64,000 nt of DNA, from positions 2,232,001-2,296,000 of the forward strand of contig NZ_VFOX01000001.1 in NCBI RefSeq assembly GCF_006716345.1, written 5' to 3'. Source of the stretch: Microbacterium saperdae. GTDB taxonomy: Bacteria > Actinomycetota > Actinomycetes > Actinomycetales > Microbacteriaceae. This document shows, in pieces, positions 51,500-64,000 of this stretch (position 1 is its first letter; the number at the start of each line of letters is the position of its first letter). Made by a program: the position numbers and the translations under genes. The notes under the pieces were generated by a model. The model did not search any database. It saw only the letters and a program-made list of their open reading frames with translations, and was not told where the DNA came from.

Positions 51500-53854
51500 T
51501 TACTGGTGCCGCATCGCGGCCTCGAGCCAGGCCTCCGGGTCCACGAGGTGGTTGTGGTCATCGAGCCCGAGGTCGATCTGCGCCCAGTGGATCGTTCCCG
51601 AAAACGCACCCCCCTTGGTCGTGTACCCCTCGTACGCGGGCATCCCGGTGTCGCAGCCGACGTCGAGGCCCTCGTCGAACGAGAAGTACATCGGGTGCGT
51701 GCGCACGACCTCTGCGGTGCCGACCTGATCACCGTCGACGAAGAGGGTGACCGTTCCTCCTCGACCGATGCCTCCGCCCGCATACGCGAACTCGGATCGC
51801 ACCTGATGGACGCCGGGCGTCAGCGGGTCGGCGGAGAGCGCCGTGCTGCGGAGGAGCCCGCAGTAGTTGTAGTGGAAGCCCACCTTTCCGCCTTCACCGA
51901 AGAATGACCAGCCGCCGGTACGACCGCCCTGGGCGAGGATGGCGCCCTCCAGCGTCCCGTCGTCGGGCACGATGATCTCCGCCGTCGCCGACCAGGACCG
52001 GTTCTTCACATTGATCGCGACGTTCTCGTTGAGCCTCGTCATACCCGGATACAGCCGCAGCGTCTCCCCCTGCACGATCGTCGGGCGACCGGCGAACTCG
52101 GGATTCATCCGCTGGGCGGCGCGGTCGTCGAGCGGGATGACGTTGTAGCGCGTGGCCTCGATCAGGAAGAGCTGCTGCAACTCGGCCAGCTTCTCCGGCT
52201 GCTCCTTCGAGAGGTCGTTCGACTGCGTCCAGTCGACCGTGGTGTCGTAGAGCTCCCACACGTCCTCGGAGAAGTCCGGCGCAGCGCTGACGACGTCCCA
52301 GGGAGTGCGGTGACGGGTCTGCGCCGTCCATCCGCGGTGATAGATCCCGCGATTGCCCATGATCTCGAAGTACTGCGTGTGATGGCGCTCCGCAGCCGTC
52401 GCATCGTTGAACGAATAGGCGAAGGACGTCCCGTGCATCGGCACCTGCGTCACGCCGTTCACCGTGTGCGGCTGGGCCAGACCCGCGAGTTCGAGGATCG
52501 TCGGTGCGACATCGATGACGTGGTGCCACTGATCGCGCACCTCTCCCCTGCCGGTGATCTGTGCCGGCCAGTGGACGATGGTGCCGTTGCGCGTGCCGCC
52601 GTAGTGACTGGCGACCTGCTTCGTCCACTGGTAGGGCGTGCACATCGCATGCGCCCACCCGACCGCGTAGTGGTTGTAGGCCTCGGGGCCGCCCACCTTG
52701 TCGAGGTTCTCCTGCCAGAACTCCACGGTCTCGTACTCCGCGCCGCCGTTCGCGGCCGTCGAGAGCATGAACGCCCCCTCCAGCCCGCCCTCGGCGGACG
52801 CCCCGTTGTCTCCGATGATGAACAGCACGAGGGTGTCGTCCAGGAGATCCAGCTGCTCGATCGCGTCGATCACGCGCCCCGTGTGATGGTCGGCGTATTC
52901 GAGGAAGGCGCCGTAGACCTCCATCTGGTGTGCCAGGATGGGCCGCCGCTCCTCAGGGACCTCATCCCATGAGGGGATCCCCTGACTGCGCTCGGTGAGC
53001 ACGGCATCCGCCGGGATGACGCCGAGCGCCTTCTGCCGCTCGAAGGTCTCCGCACGCAGCGCGTCCCATCCCTGGTCGTACCTGCCCTTGTGCTTCGCGA
53101 TCCACTCCTTCGGGACATGGTGCGGAGCATGCGTCGCACCCGGTGCGAAGTAGATGAAGAACGGCTTGTCGGGGGTGAGCGACTTCTGCTGATTGATGTA
53201 GTCGATGGCCCGATCGGCCAGGTCGGGCATCAGGTGATAGTCCGGGTCGTCGGGTGCCTCCACGAAGCCGACGCCGTCGATGAGCGCGGGCGTCCACTGA
53301 TTCGTCTCGCCGCCGATGAAACCGTAGAACTTCTCGAATCCGCTGAACGCCGGCCAGTGGTCGAACGGTCCGGTCGGACCGGACTCCCACACCGGCACCT
53401 CGTGGCACTTGCCGAACTGGGCGGTGTTGTAGCCGGCCTGTCGCAGGATCTCCGGCAGCGGAACACACGAGTTCGGACGTGTCGAACGGTACCCCGGTGA
53501 TGGCGTGGCCGTCTCGGTGATCTGTCCCATGCCGACCTGGTGATGGTTGCGGCCGGACAGCATGGCCGCCCGTGTGGGAGAGCAGATCGCGGTGGTGTGG
53601 AACCGGCTGTACCGCAGTCCTCCGCCGGCGAGGCGTTCGGCCGTCGGCATCGGCACCGGTCCCCCGAACGCGCTCGATGCGCCGAATCCGACGTCGTCGA
53701 GGAGCACGAGCAGCACGTTCGGGGCCTGCTTCGGCGGGCGCTTCATCTCGATGGGCGGGAGCTTCTCCTCCATCTTCTTCGCGTCCATCACCATCGGACC
53801 GGTGTAGGTCTGGTCCGGGATCGGCAACACGCTGCCGGGGAGTTCCGTGGTCAT
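51500..53854 (-). CDS. Arylsulfatase, FGly type (sulfatase 1)
   Basis: A 784-residue type I sulfatase hydrolysing sulfate esters. The sulfatase signature is CSPTRAAMLSGRN with the formylglycine-precursor Cys at residue 91. Metal-site residues are in LLDDVGFG and IGDNGAS, and GKCHEVP and ATHAPHH match the active-site Lys/His motifs. The C-terminal 200 residues form a beta-rich (LamG-like) domain. There is no signal peptide, so it should act in the cytoplasm and needs the FGE at 59111. Promoter dyad 53967-53983 lies upstream, 30 bases before TAGGAC. Confidence 0.95.
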   Translation of the reverse strand: MTTELPGSVLPIPDQTYTGPMVMDAKKMEEKLPPIEMKRPPKQAPNVLLVLLDDVGFGASSAFGGPVPMPTAERLAGGGLRYSRFHTTAICSPTRAAMLSGRNHHQVGMGQITETATPSPGYRSTRPNSCVPLPEILRQAGYNTAQFGKCHEVPVWESGPTGPFDHWPAFSGFEKFYGFIGGETNQWTPALIDGVGFVEAPDDPDYHLMPDLADRAIDYINQQKSLTPDKPFFIYFAPGATHAPHHVPKEWIAKHKGRYDQGWDALRAETFERQKALGVIPADAVLTERSQGIPSWDEVPEERRPILAHQMEVYGAFLEYADHHTGRVIDAIEQLDLLDDTLVLFIIGDNGASAEGGLEGAFMLSTAANGGAEYETVEFWQENLDKVGGPEAYNHYAVGWAHAMCTPYQWTKQVASHYGGTRNGTIVHWPAQITGRGEVRDQWHHVIDVAPTILELAGLAQPHTVNGVTQVPMHGTSFAYSFNDATAAERHHTQYFEIMGNRGIYHRGWTAQTRHRTPWDVVSAAPDFSEDVWELYDTTVDWTQSNDLSKEQPEKLAELQQLFLIEATRYNVIPLDDRAAQRMNPEFAGRPTIVQGETLRLYPGMTRLNENVAINVKNRSWSATAEIIVPDDGTLEGAILAQGGRTGGWSFFGEGGKVGFHYNYCGLLRSTALSADPLTPGVHQVRSEFAYAGGGIGRGGTVTLFVDGDQVGTAEVVRTHPMYFSFDEGLDVGCDTGMPAYEGYTTKGGAFSGTIHWAQIDLGLDDHNHLVDPEAWLEAAMRHQ

Positions 53855-53966
53855 CTGCGTTCCCTTTCGATCGTGGTGCTGCGCGAAGAACCGCCGCGGT
53901 CACGCAGCTCCCCTCGTACTCCTGCTACCAGTCCTATCGAGTGCCGCACGCTCGCGGTGACGGCAC

Positions 53967-53983
53967 TCACCCGTCTCGGGTGA
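53967..53983. promoter_or_regulatory. 17-bp dyad, site A (sulfatase 1 / GAP-1)
   Basis: TCACCCG-TCT-CGGGTGA is a perfect inverted repeat. Exactly 30 bases away on the minus side is TAGGAC (53936-53931), toward sulfatase 1. Exactly 30 bases away on the plus side is TAGCTT (54014-54019), toward the GAP-family gene. The dyad would be centred near -51 of both promoters, a typical activator position. Same architecture as sites B, C and D. Confidence 0.72.
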
Positions 53984-54097
53984 CTCGCCCCGAGCGCTGA
54001 CGATTCCAGGGGCTAGCTTGTGGAAGTCGGCGTCCGGCATGCACGGACCCAGATGCACCGCGGAGCCGACCCGAGCGAGCAGTGAGGGCGTGGTCCG

Positions 54098-54820
54098 ATG
54101 ACCGATCTGGTGCTGTCTCTTCTTCCGCTGGTACTCGGAATCGTGATGAGCCCCCTCGCGATCATGGCTCTCGTCGCGGTCCTCGTCTCGCGGCGTGCGC
54201 GCGTGAACGGCGTGATGTTCTTCGTGGGATGGACAGCCGGCGTGTTCATCGGCCTGGGCGCGAGCTTCGCGCTGCTGGGGCTGCTCCAGGTCCATGAACG
54301 GCAGGAGCCGCCGCTCTGGGTGCCTCTGCTGCGCCTGCTGCTGGGCGTCCTGCTTCTGCTGGGTGCCGTGTGGATCTACCGCCGCGGAAGGGCGCATCGG
54401 CTGGCGATGGCCCAGGCATCCACACCCGGCGAGGTCACCGCGGCCGCGCCGCAGCTTCCCGGATGGTTGAAGTCGGTCGAGAGTTTCACTCCCGGACGAT
54501 CTCTGGCCCTCGGAGCGGGGATCTTCCTGCTGAACCCTGTCGATCTCTCGTGCGCGGTCCTGGCGGCGCTCGACGTCCGCCTCGCCGGGCTCGACACCGT
54601 GCCCAGCGTCGTCGTGCTCGTGGTCTTCGGGGCGATCGGAGTGCTGCCGATCGGCATCCCCGTGCTCCTGGTGCTCGTCAAGGGCGAGGAAGCTGCTCCC
54701 ACACTCACGCGCATCCGCACCTGGATCGCCGGGAACACGAGTGTTCTCAACGCCGCCCTGGTGCTCGTGATCGCGGTGCTCCAGCTGCAGAAGGCGATCT
54801 CCGCCCTGCTCGCCTACTGA
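54098..54820 (+). CDS. GAP-family (Sap-like) membrane protein 1
   Basis: A 240-residue six-helix membrane protein of the LysE-superfamily-related GAP group (sulfolipid-1-addressing protein, Sap family). It has two three-helix halves with short Pro-containing re-entrant motifs (MSPLAI in the first, LNPVDLS in the second) and a soluble loop at about 105-130. Family members help move lipids or small molecules across the membrane; the cargo here is unknown. It lies between the two sulfatase genes under site A, and a paralogue is at 60059. Confidence 0.88.
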   Translation: MTDLVLSLLPLVLGIVMSPLAIMALVAVLVSRRARVNGVMFFVGWTAGVFIGLGASFALLGLLQVHERQEPPLWVPLLRLLLGVLLLLGAVWIYRRGRAHRLAMAQASTPGEVTAAAPQLPGWLKSVESFTPGRSLALGAGIFLLNPVDLSCAVLAALDVRLAGLDTVPSVVVLVVFGAIGVLPIGIPVLLVLVKGEEAAPTLTRIRTWIAGNTSVLNAALVLVIAVLQLQKAISALLAY

Positions 54821-54860
54821 CCTCATCCGTTCTCGGCAGGCGAGCGCATGCGGCGGCGCG

Positions 54861-57218
54861 CTACTGCTTCAACATCGCCACCGCGAGCCGGTGCTCGTCG
54901 TCGATGAGATGGGAGTGATCGTCGTCACCGAGGTCGATGCGCACCCACTCGATGTCACCCGAGAACGCGTTCCCCGTCGGTCCGTAGTCCGGGGAGACGG
55001 GCGAGGCGAGATCAGCGCCGACGTCGACCGTCTCGTCGAACGTGAACTGGAACGGGATGGTCCTCTTCACCCGCCCCTCGCCGATGACGGAGCCGTCGGC
55101 CGACAGCGTCACTGTGCCGCCCTTCGCCAGCCCACCGCCGTCATAGGCGAAGTGCGCGCGGAGCTCCGTCGCATCCGCGGGTATCTGCGTCGAGGAGCGC
55201 ACGATGTCGACGTCGATGCCCAGCAGGTTGTACGCGAAGGCGAGCATTCCGTCGACCGCATAGAACGACCAACCGCCATAGGCACCGCCCTGCGCGAGCA
55301 GCACGCCTGAGGCCTCACCGTCAGGGATGCGGACCTGCGCAGTGACCGTCCAGGACTTGTTCTTGATATTGATCGACGTGTTCTCGCTGAGACGCTTCAT
55401 CCCCGGATAGAACTTCTGCGAGTCGCTGACCACGAGCTGCGGACGCCCGGCGATGTCGGGATTCATCCTCTCGGCGGAGCGGATGTCGAGGGGCAGCACG
55501 TTGAAGCGCGCCGCCTGGATGAGGAAGAGCCTCTGCAGATGCGCGAGTCTCTCCGGCTCTTCCGCGGCGAGATCGTGAGACTGCGTCCAGTCCTTCTCGA
55601 CGTCGTACAGTTCCCACACGTCGTCGTCCAGCCCGTGGGACGATCCCGCCCACGGGTCTTTGTGCTTCGCGACCGCCGTCCACCCCTTGTGGTAGATCGC
55701 GCGGTTGCCGAGCATCTCGAAGTACTGCGTCTCATGCTGCTCGTCCGCCTGTGCGTTCTCCGCGGCGAAACTGTAGTTCATCGCGGTCCCCTCGTACGGG
55801 CGCTGCGTCACGCCGTTCACGAGGGATGGTTCGGGGATCCCCGCAGCCTCGAGCACGGTGGGTGCGACATCGATGACGTGGCTGAACTGGTGACGGACGC
55901 CACCCTTCTCGACACCGCCATGAGGCCAGCTCACGATCGTCCCGTTGCGGGTGCCTCCCCAATGGCTGGCGACCTGCTTGGTCCACTGGTACGGCGTGTC
56001 CATCGCATGCGCCCATCCCACCGCGTAGTGGTTGTACGACCGTGGGGTGCCGATGTCGTCGATGTGATCGGCCACGTACTGCTCGGTCTCCAGGTCGTTC
56101 ATGTGGTTGATGGTGAAGCCCTCGTTCGTCGTTCCGTGCATCGACCCCTCGGCGCTGGCACCGTTGTCGCCGATGATCACATAGACGAGCGTGTCATCGA
56201 GGATGCCGAGCTCCTCGTAAGCGTCGAGGAGCCTCCCCACGTGATGATCTGCGTACTCCAGGAAGCCCGCGTATACCTCCATCTGACGGGCCAGTGCCGG
56301 TTTGATCAGATCGCTCATCTCGTCCCACGCGGGGATGCCGGCGCTTCGTTCGGTCAACACGGCGTCAGCCGGTATCACTCCGAGTTCGAGCTGGCGGGCG
56401 AAGGTCTCCTTGCGGATCTCATCCCATCCCTGATCGAACCGGCCCTTGTACCTGTCTGCCCATTCCTCCGGCACGTGGTGCGGGGCGTGGGTCGCCCCGG
56501 GGGCGAAATAGGTGAAGGACGGCACGTCCGGCGCGAGCGACTTCTGCTCGCGGGTCCACGCGATCGCGCGGTCGGTCATGTCGCCCATGAAGTGGTAGCC
56601 CTCTTCGGGCGTTCCCCACGGTTCGACGGGAGTGGTGTTCTCATAGATCGCCGGATACCACTGGTTGGTCTCGCCGCCGATGAAGCCGTAGAAGTACTCG
56701 AACCCGTTGCCCGGGGTGGGCCATCCCGAGAACGGCCCGATCGCGCTCGCCTGCCACACGGGAACCTCGTGGCACTTGCCGAACTGCGCGGTGTTGTAAC
56801 CGTTGAGCTTCAGGGTCTCCGCGAGCGGCGCACAGCTGTTCGGTCGCACCGAGCTGTACCCCGGCGCCGAGGTGGCGATCTCTGTGATGCCTCCCATCCC
56901 GACCGTGTGGTGGTTCCGCCCGCTGAGCAGGGCGGCACGCGTCGGCGAGCACAACGCGGTGGTGTGGAAGCGCGTATACTTCAGCCCGGCAGCGGCGACG
57001 CGTTCGAAGTTCGGCGTATGCACCGGTCCCCCGAACGCGCTCGATGCCCCGAAACCGGTGTCGTCGATGAGGACCACGAGCACGTTCGGAGAGCCTGCGG
57101 GCGGACGCACCGGCTCGATCGGAGGGAATCGGGTGTCCGGGTCGGTCGCGTCGTACGTGACCGTCCCGGTGTAGGCCAGATCTGGGATCGGAAGAACGGA
57201 ACGCTGCACATCGGTCAT
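54861..57218 (-). CDS. Arylsulfatase, FGly type (sulfatase 2)
   Basis: A 785-residue paralogue of sulfatase 1 with the same layout: LIDDTGFG, CSPTRAALLSGRN (FGly Cys90), GKCHEVP, ATHAPHH, IGDNGAS and a beta-rich C-terminal domain. Long stretches match sulfatase 1 almost residue for residue, so the pair arose by duplication. They differ most in the loops around residues 180-205 and 345-385, which line the substrate site in this family and suggest different substrates. No signal peptide. Its promoter reads TACGCT (57275-57270), 30 bases from site B. Confidence 0.95.
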   Translation of the reverse strand: MTDVQRSVLPIPDLAYTGTVTYDATDPDTRFPPIEPVRPPAGSPNVLVVLIDDTGFGASSAFGGPVHTPNFERVAAAGLKYTRFHTTALCSPTRAALLSGRNHHTVGMGGITEIATSAPGYSSVRPNSCAPLAETLKLNGYNTAQFGKCHEVPVWQASAIGPFSGWPTPGNGFEYFYGFIGGETNQWYPAIYENTTPVEPWGTPEEGYHFMGDMTDRAIAWTREQKSLAPDVPSFTYFAPGATHAPHHVPEEWADRYKGRFDQGWDEIRKETFARQLELGVIPADAVLTERSAGIPAWDEMSDLIKPALARQMEVYAGFLEYADHHVGRLLDAYEELGILDDTLVYVIIGDNGASAEGSMHGTTNEGFTINHMNDLETEQYVADHIDDIGTPRSYNHYAVGWAHAMDTPYQWTKQVASHWGGTRNGTIVSWPHGGVEKGGVRHQFSHVIDVAPTVLEAAGIPEPSLVNGVTQRPYEGTAMNYSFAAENAQADEQHETQYFEMLGNRAIYHKGWTAVAKHKDPWAGSSHGLDDDVWELYDVEKDWTQSHDLAAEEPERLAHLQRLFLIQAARFNVLPLDIRSAERMNPDIAGRPQLVVSDSQKFYPGMKRLSENTSINIKNKSWTVTAQVRIPDGEASGVLLAQGGAYGGWSFYAVDGMLAFAYNLLGIDVDIVRSSTQIPADATELRAHFAYDGGGLAKGGTVTLSADGSVIGEGRVKRTIPFQFTFDETVDVGADLASPVSPDYGPTGNAFSGDIEWVRIDLGDDDHSHLIDDEHRLAVAMLKQ

Positions 57219-57305
57219 CGCTACTCCTCGGGGTCACGACGGGCTGCGGAGCCCGCCTCCTGGCGCCCCAGCGTAAGGTCCTGCCTCCTCAGCCGGCGGA
57301 GGGCA

Positions 57306-57322
57306 TCGCCCGCAACGGGTGA
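57306..57322. promoter_or_regulatory. 17-bp dyad, site B (sulfatase 2 / SulP-1)
   Basis: TCGCCCG-CAA-CGGGTGA matches site A at 13 of 14 arm positions. Thirty bases to the minus side is TACGCT (57275-57270), a good -10 for sulfatase 2. Thirty bases to the plus side is CAGCAT (57353-57358), a weaker hexamer toward the SulP gene. An extra half-site TCACCCC lies at 57332-57338; its flanking decamer TTCTCACCCC recurs at site C. Confidence 0.7.
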
Positions 57323-57450
57323 CCCGCCTTCTCACCCCGGCAGCGGCGATGTCAGCATGAGAGGGCCGTTCGAGGTGTGGCTCTCACCGGCGCCGGATGC
57401 CCCGAGTCGCGTCCGGGACGACGCCGCCTGACCGAGACGCGAGGAGCCGG

Positions 57451-59100
57451 ATGACCGACACCGCTGCACCACGCTCGCGGCCACCGGCGGCCTGGCGCAC
57501 GCGCTGGTGGTTGCCGACCCTCGTCGGATATCGCCGCGCGTGGTTGTCGTCGGACATCATCGCCGGTCTCGCCGCCGGAGCCGTCGTCGTACCGCAGGCG
57601 ATGGCCTATGCGACGATCGCGAACCTCCCGGTGCAGGTCGGCCTCTACACGTGCATCATCCCGATGCTGGTGTACGCCCTGCTCGGCGGGTCCCGCGCCA
57701 TGAGCGTGTCGACTACCTCCACGGTCGCGACGCTGACGGCCACCACTCTCGTCACGGCGACCACCGCGTCGGGGTCGGACGACCCGATCGGCACCGTGAT
57801 GGCACTGGCCATGCTGGTCGGCACGCTCCTGATCATCGCGCGGCTGCTGCGTCTGGGGTCGCTCGTCGAGAACATCAGCGCGGCGACGGTCCTGGGCGTG
57901 AAGATCGGGGTCGGTGGCACGGTCGCGGTCGGCCAGCTCCCCAAGCTGCTCGGTGAGACCTCGAACGTGTCCGGCGAAGGGTTCTTCCGGTCCCTCCTCG
58001 CCGCGCTCGCGGCGTTCGACAGCATCAACTGGCCGACCGCGGCCCTGTCTGCCGCTTCGATCGTGATCATGCTGCTGTTCGCGCGGTTCGCGCCGAAGAT
58101 CCCCGGCACGCTGGTGGTCGTGGTGATGGGGATCGTGCTCGTGTGGCTCTGGAACCTCGACGACGCCGGGGTCGCGCTGATCAATCCGGTGCCGTCGGGG
58201 CTGCCGACGCCGGGCCTGCCGAATCTGACCGATCTGGGGGCGCTCATCCCCGGGGCGCTCGCGATAGCCGTCATGGTGTTCCTCGAGACGGCCGCGGTCG
58301 CGCGCGGAATCCGTCGCCCCACGGAGCCGGCCATCGACGCCGATCAGGAGCTCATCGCCGTGGGCGTCGCGAATCTCGCCGGCACGTTCTTCAGCGCGCT
58401 CCCCGCCGCCGGGGGATTCTCGCAGAGCGCTGTGAACCAGAACGCCGGGGCGCGCACGCAGCTCGCGACTCTGGTGACCGTCGCCCTCGCGGTGCTGGTC
58501 GCCCTGTTCCTCGGCCCCGTCGTCTCGCTGCTCCCCCAGGCCACCTTGGCAGCCATGGTGCTCGTCGCCGTGGCCGGTCTGATCGACATCCCCCTGCTGA
58601 TTCGGTGGGCGCGCATCAGCGCGATCGACTTCTGGGTGGCGCTCATGGTCGCCGTCATCGGCCTCACCGGGGGTCTGCTCGCGGCGGTCGCCGCCGGTGT
58701 CGCCGTCACCCTCATCCTGGTTCTGCGGGAGCTCAACATCCCGCGACTCGAAGTCGTCGGCGAACGCGATGGCCGAGTCGCCATCCGCACCCTCCGCGGC
58801 CTCTACACGGCGAACGCGCTGGCGAACGAGCGGGCGATCATCCAGCTGGCGACCACCCGCCCCGAGCCGGTGCGCTCCGTGGTGCTGGATGCGCGGAGGC
58901 TCGAGACCGTCACGATCACCGTGCTCGACACTCTCGCCGATCTCGATCGTGAGCTCGCGGCCCACGGCATCGCCCTGCACATCGCCGCGCTTCCCGAGAA
59001 GGCGACCGCGATCGCGACGAAGACCGAGTGGTATCAGGGCCTGATCGCCGCAGGCCGGGTGCACGCCCACGTCGCCGAGGGCCTTGCCGCACCACTCTGA
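57451..59100 (+). CDS. SulP-family anion (sulfate) transporter 1
   Basis: A 549-residue SLC26/SulP transporter. The first helices carry the family Q-A-M-A-Y-A motif (VVPQAMAYATIANLPVQVGLY), followed by about 12 further membrane segments, and the C-terminal 110 residues form a STAS domain (SVVLDARRLETVTITVLDTL). The ATG at 57451 follows GAGGAG; an earlier ATG at 57397 has no ribosome binding site. Sharing site B with sulfatase 2 suggests transport of sulfate or a related anion into or out of the cell. Confidence 0.93.
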   Translation: MTDTAAPRSRPPAAWRTRWWLPTLVGYRRAWLSSDIIAGLAAGAVVVPQAMAYATIANLPVQVGLYTCIIPMLVYALLGGSRAMSVSTTSTVATLTATTLVTATTASGSDDPIGTVMALAMLVGTLLIIARLLRLGSLVENISAATVLGVKIGVGGTVAVGQLPKLLGETSNVSGEGFFRSLLAALAAFDSINWPTAALSAASIVIMLLFARFAPKIPGTLVVVVMGIVLVWLWNLDDAGVALINPVPSGLPTPGLPNLTDLGALIPGALAIAVMVFLETAAVARGIRRPTEPAIDADQELIAVGVANLAGTFFSALPAAGGFSQSAVNQNAGARTQLATLVTVALAVLVALFLGPVVSLLPQATLAAMVLVAVAGLIDIPLLIRWARISAIDFWVALMVAVIGLTGGLLAAVAAGVAVTLILVLRELNIPRLEVVGERDGRVAIRTLRGLYTANALANERAIIQLATTRPEPVRSVVLDARRLETVTITVLDTLADLDRELAAHGIALHIAALPEKATAIATKTEWYQGLIAAGRVHAHVAEGLAAPL

Positions 59101-59110
59101 CCGGTGGCGA

Positions 59111-59995
59111 TCACCGCGCGCAGCGGAAGCCGATGTGCGTCATGGCGGTGTCCTCCGCCTGCGCGGAGCGTGCGGCCGGGCGGTAGCGCAGACAGTACTC
59201 CGGAGCACACAGGTGAGAGCCGCCCTTGAGCACCCGCCGAGGGATGCGCGACCCCGGCTCGGCGGAGAGCAGGCTCGGACGCGGTCCGGCATCGACGCCG
59301 ACGGCGCCCGGCGGGACGTGCCGATGCGTCCAGTAGTCATCCGTCCACTCCCACACGTTGCCGATCATGTCGTGCAGGCCGTAGCCGTTCTCCGGGAACG
59401 AGCCGACCGGCGCCGTCCCCACCCATCCCGCAGCACCGGCGTTCCGATAGGGGAACTCGCCCTGCCAGGTGTCGGCCATCACGGCACCGTCCGGTCGGAC
59501 GTCCGATCCCCATGCGAAGCGCGCACCCACGAGACCACCACGGGCTGCCCATTCCCACTCCGCCTCAGAGGGAAGCCTCTTCCCACTCCACTCGGCGTAG
59601 GCGGCGGCGTCCGGATACGCGATGTGCACGACCGGGTGATCCCCGCGATCGACCACGGCGTCCTCGGCACCGAACGGCCGACGCCAGTGCGCCCCGGGCT
59701 CCCATCTCCACCACTGCCGCCAGTCGCGCAGATCGACCGGACCGCTCGTGGGTGTGAACACCATCGCGCCGGGCACGAGATCCGCCGGATCCGCACCGGG
59801 GAAGTCAGCCGCGTTCAACGCGCGTTCCGCGATCGTGACGTAACCGGTCGCCGCGACGAAGGCGGCATAGGCCGCGTTCGTCACCGGATGCGCGTCGAGC
59901 TCGAAGGGAGCCACCGCGCGCTCGTGGACCGGCCCCTCCTCCGGATAGAACTCGTCGGAGCCCATCAGCAACGTCCCGCCGGGGATGCGGATCAT
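59111..59995 (-). CDS. Formylglycine-generating enzyme (sulfatase-activating)
   Basis: A 294-residue FGE that oxidises the CxPxR cysteine of sulfatases to formylglycine. The copper-binding active-site pair is Cys263 and Cys268 in GGSHLCAPEYC, and the calcium-site and fold motifs GKRLPSEAEWEWAARGG and IGNVWEWTDDYW are intact, as is the ending GFRCAR. It is the only FGE in the window and the obvious activator of sulfatases 1 and 2. It is the last gene of the sulP2 operon. Its ATG overlaps the stop of a 16-codon open frame that has its own strong ribosome binding site. Confidence 0.95.
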   Translation of the reverse strand: MIRIPGGTLLMGSDEFYPEEGPVHERAVAPFELDAHPVTNAAYAAFVAATGYVTIAERALNAADFPGADPADLVPGAMVFTPTSGPVDLRDWRQWWRWEPGAHWRRPFGAEDAVVDRGDHPVVHIAYPDAAAYAEWSGKRLPSEAEWEWAARGGLVGARFAWGSDVRPDGAVMADTWQGEFPYRNAGAAGWVGTAPVGSFPENGYGLHDMIGNVWEWTDDYWTHRHVPPGAVGVDAGPRPSLLSAEPGSRIPRRVLKGGSHLCAPEYCLRYRPAARSAQAEDTAMTHIGFRCAR

Positions 59996-60042
59996 CGCCG
60001 CCCCGACGCCGATCCCCGCAGGTCCGCACGCGATTCCGTCAT
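59992..60042 (-). CDS. Short coupled open frame before the FGE gene
   Basis: A 16-codon frame starts with ATG at 60042, five bases after GAGGAG (60053-60048), and stops with TGA overlapping the FGE start (ATGA). The FGE ATG itself has only a weak ribosome binding site, so ribosomes may reach it by reinitiation after this small frame. It could also be the remnant of a longer FGE N-terminus lost by a one-base shift. No recognisable peptide function. Confidence 0.4.
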   Translation of the reverse strand: MTESRADLRGSASGRR

Positions 60043-60058
60043 CGTCGCTCCTCGTCGG

Positions 60059-60733
60059 CTAGCCGAAGCTCGCCACGCCCTTGCCGATGATCACGACGCC
60101 GAGCACGAGCAGCAGAACCGTCATGATGACGGCGTTCTCGGCCTGCAGCCAGTCGCGCAGTCTGCTCAACGGTTGGCGAAGCGCGTCGGAGGCGAGCAGG
60201 AATCCGAGCACCGGCACCAGGACGGTGGACGCTGCCAGCACCGTGAAGATGATGATCACGAGAGTCACGTCGCCGCCGGCGAGACCGGCGGCACCCAAGG
60301 TCACGCCCGCGCTGGCGCCCAGGAGCAGGTTCTTGGGATTCGCCCCCGAGAGCAGGAGCCCGAGGCCCAGGGTCGCCACGAATGACATCCCGTCGATCTG
60401 CTGCATCCATGTGGGCATCGCCGGTTGCGCATCGCCGCGCGGACGACCGCGCCACTGCCGCACGGCCAGCAGGATCAGCAGAGCGCCCAGCACCAGCTGG
60501 ATCACCCCGAGAACCGGCTTCGACGTGTCCTCCGCAGCGGTGGGGATCACAGCGGACAGCAACGTGAAGACCGTCACCACGAGGGCGATTCCGCCGATCC
60601 ACCCGATCAGGAATCCCACGCTGGTCGATCGCGCGCGTGGCGACATCAGCATCAGGATGCCCGCCACGATGGGGAGCGGGCTGATCGCGATGCCGAGTGC
60701 GAGCGGCAGCAGCTGTCCGATGACCTGTCCCAT
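60059..60733 (-). CDS. GAP-family (Sap-like) membrane protein 2
   Basis: A 224-residue paralogue of the GAP protein at 54098. It has six hydrophobic segments, with the duplicated re-entrant motifs ISPLPI near residue 17 and SGANPKNLLLG near 128, typical of the LysE-like/Sap fold. GGGGAG precedes the ATG by six bases. It lies 23 bases after the SHOCT gene and before the FGE in the same operon. Cargo unknown. Confidence 0.88.
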   Translation of the reverse strand: MGQVIGQLLPLALGIAISPLPIVAGILMLMSPRARSTSVGFLIGWIGGIALVVTVFTLLSAVIPTAAEDTSKPVLGVIQLVLGALLILLAVRQWRGRPRGDAQPAMPTWMQQIDGMSFVATLGLGLLLSGANPKNLLLGASAGVTLGAAGLAGGDVTLVIIIFTVLAASTVLVPVLGFLLASDALRQPLSRLRDWLQAENAVIMTVLLLVLGVVIIGKGVASFG

Positions 60734-60756
60734 ATGCTTCTCCCCCGTCGTCCGCG

Positions 60757-61098
60757 CTAGCTCAGCAGCTTCTGCTTCGCGGCGGCGAACTCGGCGTCGG
60801 ACAGCACGCCGGAGTCCTTCAGCGACGCGAGCTGCTGCAACTTGGAGATCATGTCGTCCGCACCGGACGACGGTGCGGCCGCGGCCGGCGCGTACTGCGC
60901 CGCCGCGTTCTGCGCGGCGGCGTCGATCTGCGCCTGCTGCTGCGCGGCGGCGTACTGCTCCTGCTCATAGTCACCCTGTGCGCGCTGCTCGCGATGCCGC
61001 ATCGCGACGCCCTGCACGGCGGTCGCGGTCCCGGCCACCACCGCGGTTCTCGCCGCGAGGCCGATCAGCCCTGGGCGGCCGAATCTCCTGAATGGCAT
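60757..61098 (-). CDS. SHOCT-domain protein with Gln/Ala-rich linker
   Basis: A 113-residue protein. The N-terminus is basic and Gly-rich with a weakly hydrophobic segment (about 10-28). A Gln/Ala-rich linker (about 35-80) is probably helical or disordered. The C-terminal 30 residues are a SHOCT motif (MISKLQQLASLKDSGVLSDAEFAAAKQKLL), a short module for oligomerisation or nucleic-acid/membrane association. The ATG at 61098 follows the DUF6325 stop by one base and has GGAAGG upstream; a GTG at 61107 is an alternative. Confidence 0.85.
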   Translation of the reverse strand: MPFRRFGRPGLIGLAARTAVVAGTATAVQGVAMRHREQRAQGDYEQEQYAAAQQQAQIDAAAQNAAAQYAPAAAAPSSGADDMISKLQQLASLKDSGVLSDAEFAAAKQKLLS

Positions 61099-61099
61099 G

Positions 61100-61534
61100 T
61101 CATTCACCTTCCTGGTCGAGGATGTCCATCATGGCGTTCACCACAGGGGCGGGCACGCGCTCGCTGCGCAGCACCTGCCCGCCCGCTGCGGCGAGGTTCT
61201 GAGCGAGTTCCCGCGCGAAGGAGAGCTCGAGGACGACGATGGCCGCGGACTGCCCCGGCGGGATCGCCTCGGCGAGCGCTTCCATGTCCTCGTCGCCGGC
61301 GATACCCGCGGCGATGGGACTGATATCGCCCAGGCCGAGGGAATCGTCTTCCGAGTCCAACTCGAGGATGCTCAGCTCCCCCGTGTCGGACTTCGTCAGC
61401 ACGACGAAGTCGAGCAGAAGCACGACGCCGGTGTTGATCAGATCGGTCAGCGCGCGGAACGTCGCCGGGTCGGGCCTGTCGCCCTCGAACCCGACCAGAT
61501 AGAACTCTGCCGGTCCGAATCGGAAGTCATTCAT
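61100..61534 (-). CDS. DUF6325 family protein
   Basis: A 144-residue acidic protein. The pattern AEFYLVGFEGDRPDPATFRALTDLINTG followed by VVLLLDFVVLTK and a C-terminal AAIVVLELSFARELAQNLAAAGG matches DUF6325, an uncharacterised actinobacterial family often found beside SHOCT genes. It looks like an alpha/beta fold with a ferredoxin-like start. It overlaps the end of sulP2 by eight bases and precedes the SHOCT gene. A second member begins at 63865. Function unknown. Confidence 0.85.
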   Translation of the reverse strand: MNDFRFGPAEFYLVGFEGDRPDPATFRALTDLINTGVVLLLDFVVLTKSDTGELSILELDSEDDSLGLGDISPIAAGIAGDEDMEALAEAIPPGQSAAIVVLELSFARELAQNLAAAGGQVLRSERVPAPVVNAMMDILDQEGE

Positions 61535-63227
61535 GAAGCTGCCCTTCTTCTGCGTGGGATGACGGTGAGGGAACGTGGGCGCTCGAGGCGCTCAGCGCTG
61601 CGACCGCGGCGCGATTGGTCGCGAACACGCGTTGGTCGGTCAGCACTCCGAGCCGCTCGAGCCGGGGCCGAGCTCGCGTTCTGAGCCGGCTGAACGCCAG
61701 AGAGACGCCATGATCGTCGAGCCACTCGACGAGGCCGGCGAAAGACTCGGCGGCGGTGACGTCGGCATCGGTGACCGCCTCCATGTCGATCACGACGTGC
61801 TGCACCGCGTCGGCACCCGGGGCGGTGACAGCGGTGCGGATCGCCTGCCCGAAGACGTCGCCGTTCGCGAAGAACAGCGGCGCGGCCATGCGCACCACCA
61901 CGATGCCCGGTGCCGTCGTCGAACCCGCCGCCCCTTCCTCGAGCAGCGAGTCTCCTGGCTCTCCGTCGGCCGCGAGCACATCGATCGCGGGATTGGCCGC
62001 ACGCTTCGCGAGGTTGATGAGAGCGAGCACGAACGCGACGATGATCCCGGGGATCGATCCCACGAACAGCGTGACGAGGAAGCACACCGCACCGACGAAG
62101 AACTCGAACCGGTCCAGCTTCCACAGGGACGCGAGCTCACGGAATCCGAGCAGCGGCAGGATCGCCACGCCGACGATGGCCCCGATCGCCGGAGACGGGA
62201 TGTCCTCGAGGAGCGCGGTGCCGAAGAGGAGCAGCAGCAGCGTGCCGACGGCCAGGACGAGAGACGGGAGCTGCGTGCGCGAACCCGACTGGTCCATCGC
62301 CGCGGTGCGGCTGGTCGACGACCCCACGGCGAAGCTGCCCTGCGCGCCGGCGGCGATGTTCGCGACGCCGAAGGCCAGGAGGTCGCGATTGGGTTCTGTG
62401 CGATAGTGGCGCTTCTCACCGTACGAGCGCGAGACCAGCAGCCCCTCTGCGGTCGTCACCAGGGTGAGGGCCATCGCCGACGGGATCAGCAGGAGCCAGG
62501 TCTGCCAGTCGATGACCGGCCACGTGAGCGAGGGGGCTCCGGCAGGGACGGCCCCGAGCACGGCGACTCCGGCAGCGCCCAGGTCGGCCAGCACGACGAC
62601 CAGGGTGGCGACGACGAGCACGAGCAACGCCCACGGGATCATGCCGAAGAACCGTTTGCCGAGCATCAGCACGACGACGGACGCCGCCGCGATCAGCACC
62701 GACCAGCCGTTCATCGAGCCGAGCCCGCCGAGAAGGTCGCCCACCTTCTCGACGAACTCGCCCCCCGAATCGATCTTCACTCCGAGCATCTTGGCGATCT
62801 GTGACACCAGGATGTCGAGTGCGAGTCCTCCGACGAACCCGATCAGGATCGGCTTCGACAGGAAGTTCGCGAGAAAACCGAGCTTGAAGACCGCCAGCAG
62901 GATGAACATGACGCCACAGATGATCGCCTGCGCGAGAGCGAGCACGGCGTAGTCCGCGGAGCCGGCGACGGCCAGCCCTCCGATCGACGATGCGACGAGC
63001 GCCGCCGCGGCGGCATCCGGCGACGCGACGAGCTGACGGGACGAGACCACCAGTGCGTAGAGCACCGTGGGAACGACGAGCGCGTAGAGCCCGGCGGTCG
63101 CGGGGAGCCCGGCGATCTGCGCGTAGCCGATGTTGAGAGGGATCGCGATCGCGAGGAGTGTGACGCCCGCGAGGAGCTCGCGCACGACGTTGGCCCGCGT
63201 GAGCCCCGCCAGCGGCTTCTGCACCAC
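61527..63227 (-). CDS. SulP-family anion transporter 2 with STAS domain
   Basis: A 566-residue SulP transporter, only distantly related to SulP-1. The first helix carries VTLLAIAIPLNIGYAQIAGLP in the position of the family substrate motif, and the SSTSRTAAMDQSGSRTQ block is typical. The C-terminal STAS domain (about 430-545) contains VVIDMEAVTDADVTAAESF. The GTG at 63227 was chosen because GGAGGTGAT stands directly before it. First gene of the operon sulP2-DUF6325-SHOCT-GAP-FGE, with dyad C upstream. Confidence 0.92.
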   Translation of the reverse strand: MVQKPLAGLTRANVVRELLAGVTLLAIAIPLNIGYAQIAGLPATAGLYALVVPTVLYALVVSSRQLVASPDAAAAALVASSIGGLAVAGSADYAVLALAQAIICGVMFILLAVFKLGFLANFLSKPILIGFVGGLALDILVSQIAKMLGVKIDSGGEFVEKVGDLLGGLGSMNGWSVLIAAASVVVLMLGKRFFGMIPWALLVLVVATLVVVLADLGAAGVAVLGAVPAGAPSLTWPVIDWQTWLLLIPSAMALTLVTTAEGLLVSRSYGEKRHYRTEPNRDLLAFGVANIAAGAQGSFAVGSSTSRTAAMDQSGSRTQLPSLVLAVGTLLLLLFGTALLEDIPSPAIGAIVGVAILPLLGFRELASLWKLDRFEFFVGAVCFLVTLFVGSIPGIIVAFVLALINLAKRAANPAIDVLAADGEPGDSLLEEGAAGSTTAPGIVVVRMAAPLFFANGDVFGQAIRTAVTAPGADAVQHVVIDMEAVTDADVTAAESFAGLVEWLDDHGVSLAFSRLRTRARPRLERLGVLTDQRVFATNRAAVAALSASSAHVPSPSSHAEEGQLHE

Positions 63228-63307
63228 ATCACCTCCGCGCTGTCGCCACTGGTGCGGGCGATATGGCACTCATGCTCGCACCGGGTCTGCAGCGGAGCCG
63301 GGTCTTC

Positions 63308-63324
63308 TCACCCCAAGCGGGTGA
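63308..63324. promoter_or_regulatory. 17-bp dyad, site C (SulP-2 operon)
   Basis: TCACCCC-AAG-CGGGTGA has the same 7-3-7 layout as sites A, B and D. Exactly 30 bases to the minus side is GAGCAT (63277-63272), placed like the -10 of sites A and B, toward the sulP2 operon. On the other side no comparable hexamer is found at 30 bases, which fits site D serving the plus-strand gene. Confidence 0.68.
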
Positions 63325-63368
63325 GTACGAGGATGAGGCGGACCGGGACGAATGCCGGTCAGCGGGGC

Positions 63369-63385
63369 TCGCCCGCTCCGGGTGA
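63369..63385. promoter_or_regulatory. 17-bp dyad, site D (PLDc_N/SHOCT gene)
   Basis: TCGCCCG-CTC-CGGGTGA; the arms are identical to those of site B. Exactly 30 bases to the plus side is CAGGAT (63416-63421), a likely -10 for the small membrane protein gene starting at 63457. No comparable hexamer is found 30 bases to the minus side. Confidence 0.68.
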
Positions 63386-63456
63386 GGTGGTCGCGCTGCG
63401 CTCGAGAGGCGCTGTCAGGATCGCGGTACGCAATACTTCAACGAAAGGAGTCGATC

Positions 63457-63843
63457 GTGTCGATATGGGACAGCTTCTGGTCCATCATCTGGTGGTTCTT
63501 CTGGGCGTTCGTGTTCATCTCGTACCTCATGGTGCTCTTCAACATCGTCGCGGATCTGTTCCGCGACCACGCCCTCAACGGCTGGCTGAAAGCGATCTGG
63601 ATCATCTTCCTGGTCTTCGTACCGTTCCTGACGGCCCTCGTCTACCTGATCGCCCGCGGTCGGGGAATGGGTGAGAGGAGCGCCGCCGCGTATCGCGACC
63701 AGCAGCACGCGGCGGATTCCTACATCCGCAGCGTCGCATCGAGCAGTCCGAGCGATGAGATCGACAAGGCGTCGAAGCTCCTGGCAGCCGGGACGATCAC
63801 GAACGAGGAGTTCGCGTCGATCAAGTCCCGGGCTCTGAGCTGA
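63457..63843 (+). CDS. Small membrane protein with PLDc_N and SHOCT domains
   Basis: A 128-residue protein. Two aromatic-rich helices (about 4-28 and 42-66) with the intervening ADLFRDHALNGWLKAIWII match the PLDc_N membrane module. The C-terminal 35 residues (DEIDKASKLLAAGTITNEEFASIKSRAL) form a SHOCT motif like that of the protein at 60757. AAAGGAG lies before the GTG at 63457. Divergent from sulP2 and probably coregulated through sites C and D. Role unknown. Confidence 0.88.
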   Translation: MSIWDSFWSIIWWFFWAFVFISYLMVLFNIVADLFRDHALNGWLKAIWIIFLVFVPFLTALVYLIARGRGMGERSAAAYRDQQHAADSYIRSVASSSPSDEIDKASKLLAAGTITNEEFASIKSRALS

Positions 63844-63864
63844 CACGCTGTTGAGGTGGTCGAT

Positions 63865-64000
63865 GTGACGCTGCGCGCGCTCGGCGATGTCGAGTTCTTC
63901 GTCGTACGGTTGGACACCGACCACCTCAGCCCGCATGCGCTGGAGGCGCTGCTGCGGCAGGTGGAAGCCGGGGCCGTGCGCATCCTCGACCTCCTCCTCA
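63865..64000 (+). CDS. DUF6325 family protein, N-terminus only (runs off the window)
   Basis: The frame from GTG 63865 reads VTLRALGDVEFFVVRLDTDH and continues with ALEALLRQVEAGAVRILDLLL to the window edge. This aligns with the N-terminus of the DUF6325 protein at 61100 (AEFYLVGFEGD, LTDLINTGVVLLLDFVVL). AGGTGG lies six bases before the GTG; a GTG nine bases earlier is possible. It starts 21 bases after the PLDc_N/SHOCT gene and is probably cotranscribed, giving a second DUF6325-SHOCT pair in the locus. Confidence 0.8.
   Translation, partial: MTLRALGDVEFFVVRLDTDHLSPHALEALLRQVEAGAVRILDLLL

Follow-up and report, generated by a model that had tools for sequence, protein, structure and literature searches.

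Our analysis of a 64,000-bp stretch of the Microbacterium saperdae genome (positions 2,232,001 to 2,296,000 of contig NZ_VFOX01000001.1; hereafter the window) indicates that a 17-bp dyad recurring in the divergent intergenic regions of a sulfatase gene cluster is very probably the operator of a MalT-like LuxR-type ATPase (LAL) encoded just beyond the window, and that this LAL would be the autoregulated activator of a regulon having two clade-specific promoter geometries. An earlier note on this DNA had described the dyad and proposed that one regulator encoded outside the window controls the gene set. Sequence comparisons support that proposal in three respects: adjacency of the LAL gene, co-occurrence of the dyad with two LAL clades across 149 genomes, and a recurring spacing between dyad and promoter.

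The four dyad copies that had been reported are all present, with 0 mismatches to TCrCCCs-N3-CGGGTGA, and direct reading places the start of each of six −10-like hexamers exactly 30 bases outward from a dyad edge, confirming the original observation. In particular, dyad 1 (TCACCCGTCTCGGGTGA, 53967..53983) lies between the sulfatase gene SULF1 and GAP1, with TAGGAC (53931..53936, − strand) toward SULF1 and TAGCTT (54014..54019, + strand) toward GAP1; dyad 2 (TCGCCCGCAACGGGTGA, 57306..57322) lies between SULF2 and the permease gene SulP1, with TACGCT (57270..57275, − strand) toward SULF2 and the extended −10-like TGT-CAGCAT (hexamer at 57353..57358, + strand) toward SulP1. The third intergenic region contains two copies: dyad 3 (TCACCCCAAGCGGGTGA, 63308..63324), on the SulP2 side, with the extended −10-like TGC-GAGCAT (63272..63277, − strand) toward SulP2, and dyad 4 (TCGCCCGCTCCGGGTGA, 63369..63385), for SHOCT2/DUF6325b, with the extended −10-like TGT-CAGGAT (63416..63421, + strand) toward SHOCT2. 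The pattern xAnnnT fits five of the six hexamers, the exception being TAGGAC on the SULF1 side, the last base of which is not T. When up to three mismatches to the dyad pattern are allowed, the window contains 51 matches versus 68 expected; looser matches are thus not above chance, and only the near-perfect dyads carry the claim.

The candidate regulator gene (P0001; C1:2296320-2298866, − strand, window equivalent 64320-66866, L011:2321-4867) has its 3′ end ~320 bp past position 64000, convergent with DUF6325b and 29 bases after it, which agrees with the placement of the regulator outside the window. P0001 is a LAL of 848 residues with an ATPase at its N end and a helix-turn-helix (HTH) at its C end. 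Specifically, residues 44-168 match AAA_22 (E 2.6e-6; 28.2 bits, cut-off 27), reading of the sequence reveals GFGKT and LVVDDAH motifs, residues 18-383 align to MalT structure 8bob (E 2.4e-22), and residues 791-845 match the LuxR HTH family PF00196 (E 2.6e-12). The Pfam scan of P0001 returned no TPR match (TPR_12 falls below cut-off in the homologue L066) and neither a receiver nor an autoinducer domain. The curated NCBIfam MalT model NF003420 gives 151.2 bits against a cut-off of 537, a threshold by which P0001 is not MalT itself. The same genome also encodes a shorter LAL relative (C1:1699320-1700783, L171; open frame of 572 residues) that aligns only to P0001 residues 350-845, and similar partial matches (~490-570 codons) are present in several other genomes of the genus.

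The dyad is conserved in relatives, the near-perfect form being enriched at one gap length only. Among 80 SulP loci (1.65 Mb), the best of 211 relatives in a SulP2 scan, strict TCACCC-N5-GGGTGA (gap 5) is found 33 times, whereas the counts are 4, 0, 0, 0, and 1 for gaps 0-4 and 1, 1, 0, 1, 0, and 0 for gaps 6-11; nine permuted palindromes do not occur at all in these loci; and a relaxed form occurs 56 times at gap 5 versus 0-9 times at other gaps. These gap and permutation controls led us to reject chance palindromes for near-perfect sites. That the dyads are a repeat family or G+C-rich palindromes arising by chance is, overall, an explanation to which we give almost no weight: it could draw on the abundance of one-mismatch sites in the M. 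saperdae genome (102, against 64 for a reversed control), but it would not account for the gap preference, and the flanks of the sites differ by eye, except for the similar promoters at 63308 and C2:214939, with no repeat search made.

The dyad accompanies the LAL gene. Within the 80 SulP loci, an annotated LAL of more than 500 residues is present in 20, and the relaxed dyad occurs in 19 of these versus 8 of the other 60. For the eight dyad-bearing loci having no such LAL, six genomes were searched, and five encode a member of one of two LAL clades, LAL-A or LAL-B, elsewhere: a full-length LAL-A-like match in the genomes of L115, L116, and L117 (L115 is the same genome as G172 and is therefore not independent) and LAL-B in those of L071 and L137. 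We then classified 149 genomes of the genus into LAL-A (n = 15) and LAL-B (n = 22) genomes, both at E <1e-180, using thresholds chosen after the lists had been viewed, with scores limited to the few top candidates in each genome. At least one strict dyad is present in 14/15 LAL-A genomes, 19/22 LAL-B genomes, and 27/112 genomes having neither, with means of 2.07, 2.14, and 0.29 strict dyads per genome. The association gives a Fisher P of 1.6e-12, a value that overstates independence since the genomes are related and close relatives are counted separately (only arm counts, below, were collapsed for similarity). The genomes of either clade without a strict dyad are G151 (LAL-A) and G193, G195, and G215 (LAL-B). 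In LAL neighbourhoods of up to 20 kb, fetched for most members of each class (12 A and 20 B; L011, L051, L053, L054, and L057 are class members outside this set), strict dyads number 12 (A) and 21 (B) at gap 5, versus 1 and 0 for the remaining gaps from 0 to 11 combined, and relaxed dyads number 26 versus 2 (A) and 31 versus 14 (B). The relaxed dyad occurs in 11/12 A neighbourhoods, 16/20 B neighbourhoods, and 1/3 neighbourhoods of weak LAL relatives.

The distance between dyad and hexamer falls into two classes that follow the LAL clade. The earlier note's figure of exactly 30 bases holds in the window but not across relatives, where the spacing is 29-31 in class A and 22/23 in class B. Among 108 non-redundant class A arms, xAnnnT is found at offset 30 in 33 and at offset 31 in 22, where ~2.5 would be expected at each (binomial P 1e-27 and 8e-15). 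A recount in which no arm was counted twice gave 55/108 at 30/31, and leaving out M. saperdae itself gave 50/98, so that the spacing seen in the window is kept in relatives; omission also of L067, L074, and L056, which were placed in class A although LAL-A is not shown beside them, gave 48/92. Among 61 non-redundant class B arms, 19 have the hexamer at 22 and 14 at 23 (33/61 together; ~1.6 expected at each). Crossed spacing is rare: 7/98 A arms at 22/23 and 6/61 B arms at 30/31. Counted by site, with M. saperdae left out, 62/65 A sites have an arm at 29-31 and 40/42 B sites an arm at 22/23, with the opposite-class spacing seen in 12/65 and 7/42; in a slightly different site list, 57/58 A and 36/38 B sites fit, and the fit extends to both arms at 13 A sites but at no B site. 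The B hexamers are mostly TAnnnT (14 at offset 22, 9 at offset 23). The A hexamers are often of extended −10 type, resembling TGnCAGCAT, in a set of 59 arms selected because they carry a hexamer, and the summarised parts of these 59 arms contain no strong −35-like consensus.

The same gene families, assigned as best matches to a reference set rather than as proven orthologues, switch spacing with the LAL clade. SHOCT2 arms have the hexamer at 29-31 in 15/20 cases in class A and at 22/23 in 12/12 cases in class B; the corresponding numbers are 3/3 and 5/5 for SULF2, 7/11 and 1/2 for SulP2, and 3/12 and 10/10 for AI-2E family genes, three of the last ten also fitting 29-31. The AI-2E misses in class A may reflect arms that point away from the promoter served, or mis-called starts. 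A tree built from 60 LALs places the 24 A rows on one side of a branch with SH-aLRT support of 100, and LAL-A and LAL-B lie far apart; owing to the long-branched L124, two changes are required for the 21 B rows, in what is a quick tree where long branches meet. The HTH recognition segment S-x-N-T-V/I-K-T-H is present in nearly all rows of both clades. We consider it rather likely that two distant LAL clades have retained one 17-bp operator, with gene sets that overlap, while its position relative to the promoter differs by 8 bases between them, with DNA recognition fixed and activation geometry rebuilt. A shift of 8 bases amounts to roughly three quarters of a helical turn, so members of the two clades should approach RNA polymerase from different faces.

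Other LAL relatives were also encountered. The loci of the weak relatives L215-L217 (34-35% identity) contain 0, 0, and 1 relaxed dyads, and the single copy has no hexamer at 22/23 or 29-31. L215 and L216, which lie near SulP2-, GAP2-, and DUF6325-type genes, have NTIRTH in place of NTVKTH, a small but suggestive contrast, and may read another operator. A third-clade LAL lies ~4-10 kb from LAL-A in ten loci (L078, L088, L093, L096, L098, L100, L104, L105, L114, and L120) and follows a sulfatase gene in L206 and L209. The LAL-B matches in G258, G289, G152, G265, G150, G276, and G292 carry one in-frame TGA, possibly with the query start set too far upstream.

The whole-genome scan suggested in the earlier note revealed nine TCRCCCN5GGGYGA sites in M. 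saperdae versus two for a reversed control: the four dyads of the window, two further regulon-like sites, and three sites inside gene calls. The first of the two further sites, at C2:214939, repeats the 17-mer of dyad 3 upstream of a GAP gene, after which comes an alkyl sulfatase gene, and has GAGCAT at 31; the second, at C2:1091830, is followed after 34 bases by an AI-2E family gene and has CACGAT at 30. Regulon-like promoters are thus also present elsewhere in the genome. The sites at C1:1686638 and C2:767679 were excluded from the regulon, being inside gene calls and having no hexamer at 29-31. The site at C1:3001157 was likewise excluded as inside a gene call, a matter of judgement, since one of its sides has a hexamer at 31; this site (C1:3001157-3001173, L015:5158-5174) sits in a region that looks phage-like by its translations. 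Two of the one-mismatch sites, C1:2300055 and C1:2300759, precede the row of genes that contains the LAL gene, the former with xAnnnT at 30 toward DUF998-LAL and the latter with xAnnnT at 31 and 30, one per side; of nine other one-mismatch sites inspected, one has a hexamer at 29-31. Through these sites the LAL operon is probably a member of the regulon. Since the two were picked by place out of 102, they suggest, rather than establish, LAL autoregulation.

We infer from these patterns that the LAL binds the dyad, acts as an activator, and feeds back on its own gene. Two LuxR HTH domains would occupy the two TCACCCG half-sites, with the dyad centred near −51, and the LAL would recruit RNA polymerase to promoters having a −10 element, often extended, and no evident −35 element. 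One dyad could serve two divergent promoters. The regulon would comprise the sulfatases, FGE, SulP, GAP, and SHOCT/DUF6325 genes, the AI-2E gene, and the GAP and alkyl-sulfatase pair, with feedback of the LAL on its own operon through the one-mismatch sites. If the hexamer is taken as −12 to −7, the dyad centre falls at −51/−52 in class A or −43/−44 in class B; an operator in such an upstream position, with no −35 element in evidence, suits an activator. A LAL that bound the dyad as a repressor is improbable: a palindrome-binding Streptomyces LAL, SCO6993, is a repressor (PMC9628970), but 22-31 bases separate the hexamer from the dyad upstream of it, which puts the dyad outside the core promoter, and the lack of a strong −35-like consensus in the arms summarised fits activator-dependent promoters. 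Far less probable is a role as an RNA hairpin or terminator in place of an operator; a 7-bp stem and 3-base loop could fold, but the dyad is upstream of putative promoters, in divergent regions, and its distance from the hexamers is fixed.

Further genomes provide both support and exceptions. Leucobacter sp. L43 combines a full-length LAL-A-like match (826 bits) with the hexamer CACGAT at offset 30. In the three LAL-B genomes M. rhizomatis, M. sp. Root166, and M. flavescens, a dyad with spacing 22 precedes the LAL gene by ~320-380 bases. Leifsonia poae has LAL-B and five relaxed dyads, with spacing 22/23 in both of the two inspected; the predicted spacing of 22 was found only at one-mismatch sites, away from the predicted place. 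One LAL search covered 22 genomes. The 15 picked as dyad-negative controls proved poor: LAL-B is present in at least four of them (Leifsonia flava, M. jejuense, M. sp. Root166, and M. flavescens) and stands next to a dyad in three of these four.

Several results weigh against assigning the dyad to the LAL. A prediction for Leifsonia flava, set beforehand, failed: its 19-kb LAL-B stretch contains no relaxed dyad, and the stretch upstream contains no spaced site with up to two mismatches; one strict dyad is present elsewhere than at LAL-B. No relaxed dyad occurs in 4/20 LAL-B and 1/12 LAL-A neighbourhoods, and L057 is also dyad-free. Conversely, the dyad is found where neither clade was detected: in Humibacter (L122), at the cut-offs used; in the 27/112 genus genomes noted above, five of which carry two strict dyads; and in 6 of the 10 strict-dyad genomes among the 14 originally picked as controls, LAL-B having been sought in three of the six. 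These six are Agromyces fucosus (L294), which has four strict dyads, A. mediolanus, Leifsonia sp. Root4, Microterricola pindariensis, Demequina aurantiaca, and M. azadirachtae. At their first loci, the hexamer is at 22 or 23 in two (22 in M. pindariensis, L300; 23 in Root4, L301, where LAL-B was not sought), at 29 in one, and at neither in three. Some dyads therefore remain without an assigned regulator, and the recount of such genomes slightly lowered our confidence in the LAL assignment. It also counts against the assignment that MalT itself is described in PMC9628970 with a short MalT box rather than a dyad.

These exceptions favour the view that a different, unlinked, family-wide regulator binds the dyad, with the LAL merely a frequent neighbour of the gene sets: strict dyads occur without either clade in the 27/112 genus genomes and 6/14 other genomes, some LAL loci are dyad-free, and other LuxR-type proteins are present in some of the loci. 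Against this view, the mean dyad count is ~sevenfold higher with a LAL, and spacing class tracks LAL clade inside the same gene families; two spacings divided by clade are not easily explained by a shared unlinked regulator, and we regard such a regulator as unlikely, with the neighbouring LAL the preferred candidate.

The cluster that the window dyads would serve comprises the sulfatases SULF1 (51500..53854, − strand; PF00884, CSPTR motif at residue 91) and SULF2 (54861..57218, − strand; PF00884, CSPTR motif at residue 90); the SfLAP family proteins GAP1 (54098..54820, + strand; PF11139), a membrane protein, and GAP2 (60059..60733, − strand; PF11139); the anion permeases SulP1 (57397..59100, + strand; PF00916) and SulP2 (61527..63269, − strand; PF00916, with a STAS domain, PF01740); FGE, of the sulfatase-modifying (formylglycine-generating) enzyme family (59111..59995, − strand; PF03781); SHOCT1 (60757..61107, − strand; PF09851) and SHOCT2 (63457..63843, + strand; PF09851 at 23.2 bits, short of the 27-bit cut-off); and DUF6325a (61100..61534, − strand; PF19850) and DUF6325b, which starts at 63856..64000 (+ strand) and continues past the window to the equivalent of 64290 (L011:1857-2291). 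Genes were called with a simple script, and some starts are wrong, probably including those of SulP1, given from the first ATG of its open reading frame with the true start maybe further downstream, and SulP2, where the first GTG adjoins the hexamer and the true start is probably further in. Two recurrent regulon neighbours (L051:10356-11645, 429 residues; L051:5193-5822, 209 residues) have no Pfam or NCBIfam match. The literature search gave no match for DUF6325, nor for SfLAP together with sulfatase, and among the matches listed, from a search covering few subscription papers, no title or abstract opening describes this regulon.

To our knowledge, few clean operators are known for LAL-type regulators, which here would gain a well-defined operator, a candidate for the regulator gene, and natural promoters by the dozen. 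The grouping of DUF6325, SHOCT, SfLAP, SulP, and AI-2E proteins in one regulon with sulfatases would narrow their possible functions, and the two spacings would constitute a natural experiment in which the contact between activator and RNA polymerase moves while DNA specificity stays.

NarL/LuxR-type dimeric activators place two HTHs on inverted half-sites and activate from upstream of the core promoter, the arrangement that we propose for the LAL; P0001 differs from them in having no receiver or autoinducer domain match and in its operator, TCACCC-N5-GGGTGA. With E. coli MalT, P0001 shares a MalT-like N-terminal ATPase, a C-terminal LuxR HTH, and targets across several operons, but it scores far below the MalT model cut-off, its gene set is one of sulfatases and membrane proteins, and the short MalT box, as described in PMC9628970, differs from the conserved 17-bp dyad. 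SCO6993 of Streptomyces coelicolor, a 606-residue LAL, binds palindromes, including in its own promoter region, and represses antibiotic regulators, and its authors were unable to predict a consensus (PMC9628970), whereas the sites described here have one strict consensus at a fixed distance from the promoter.

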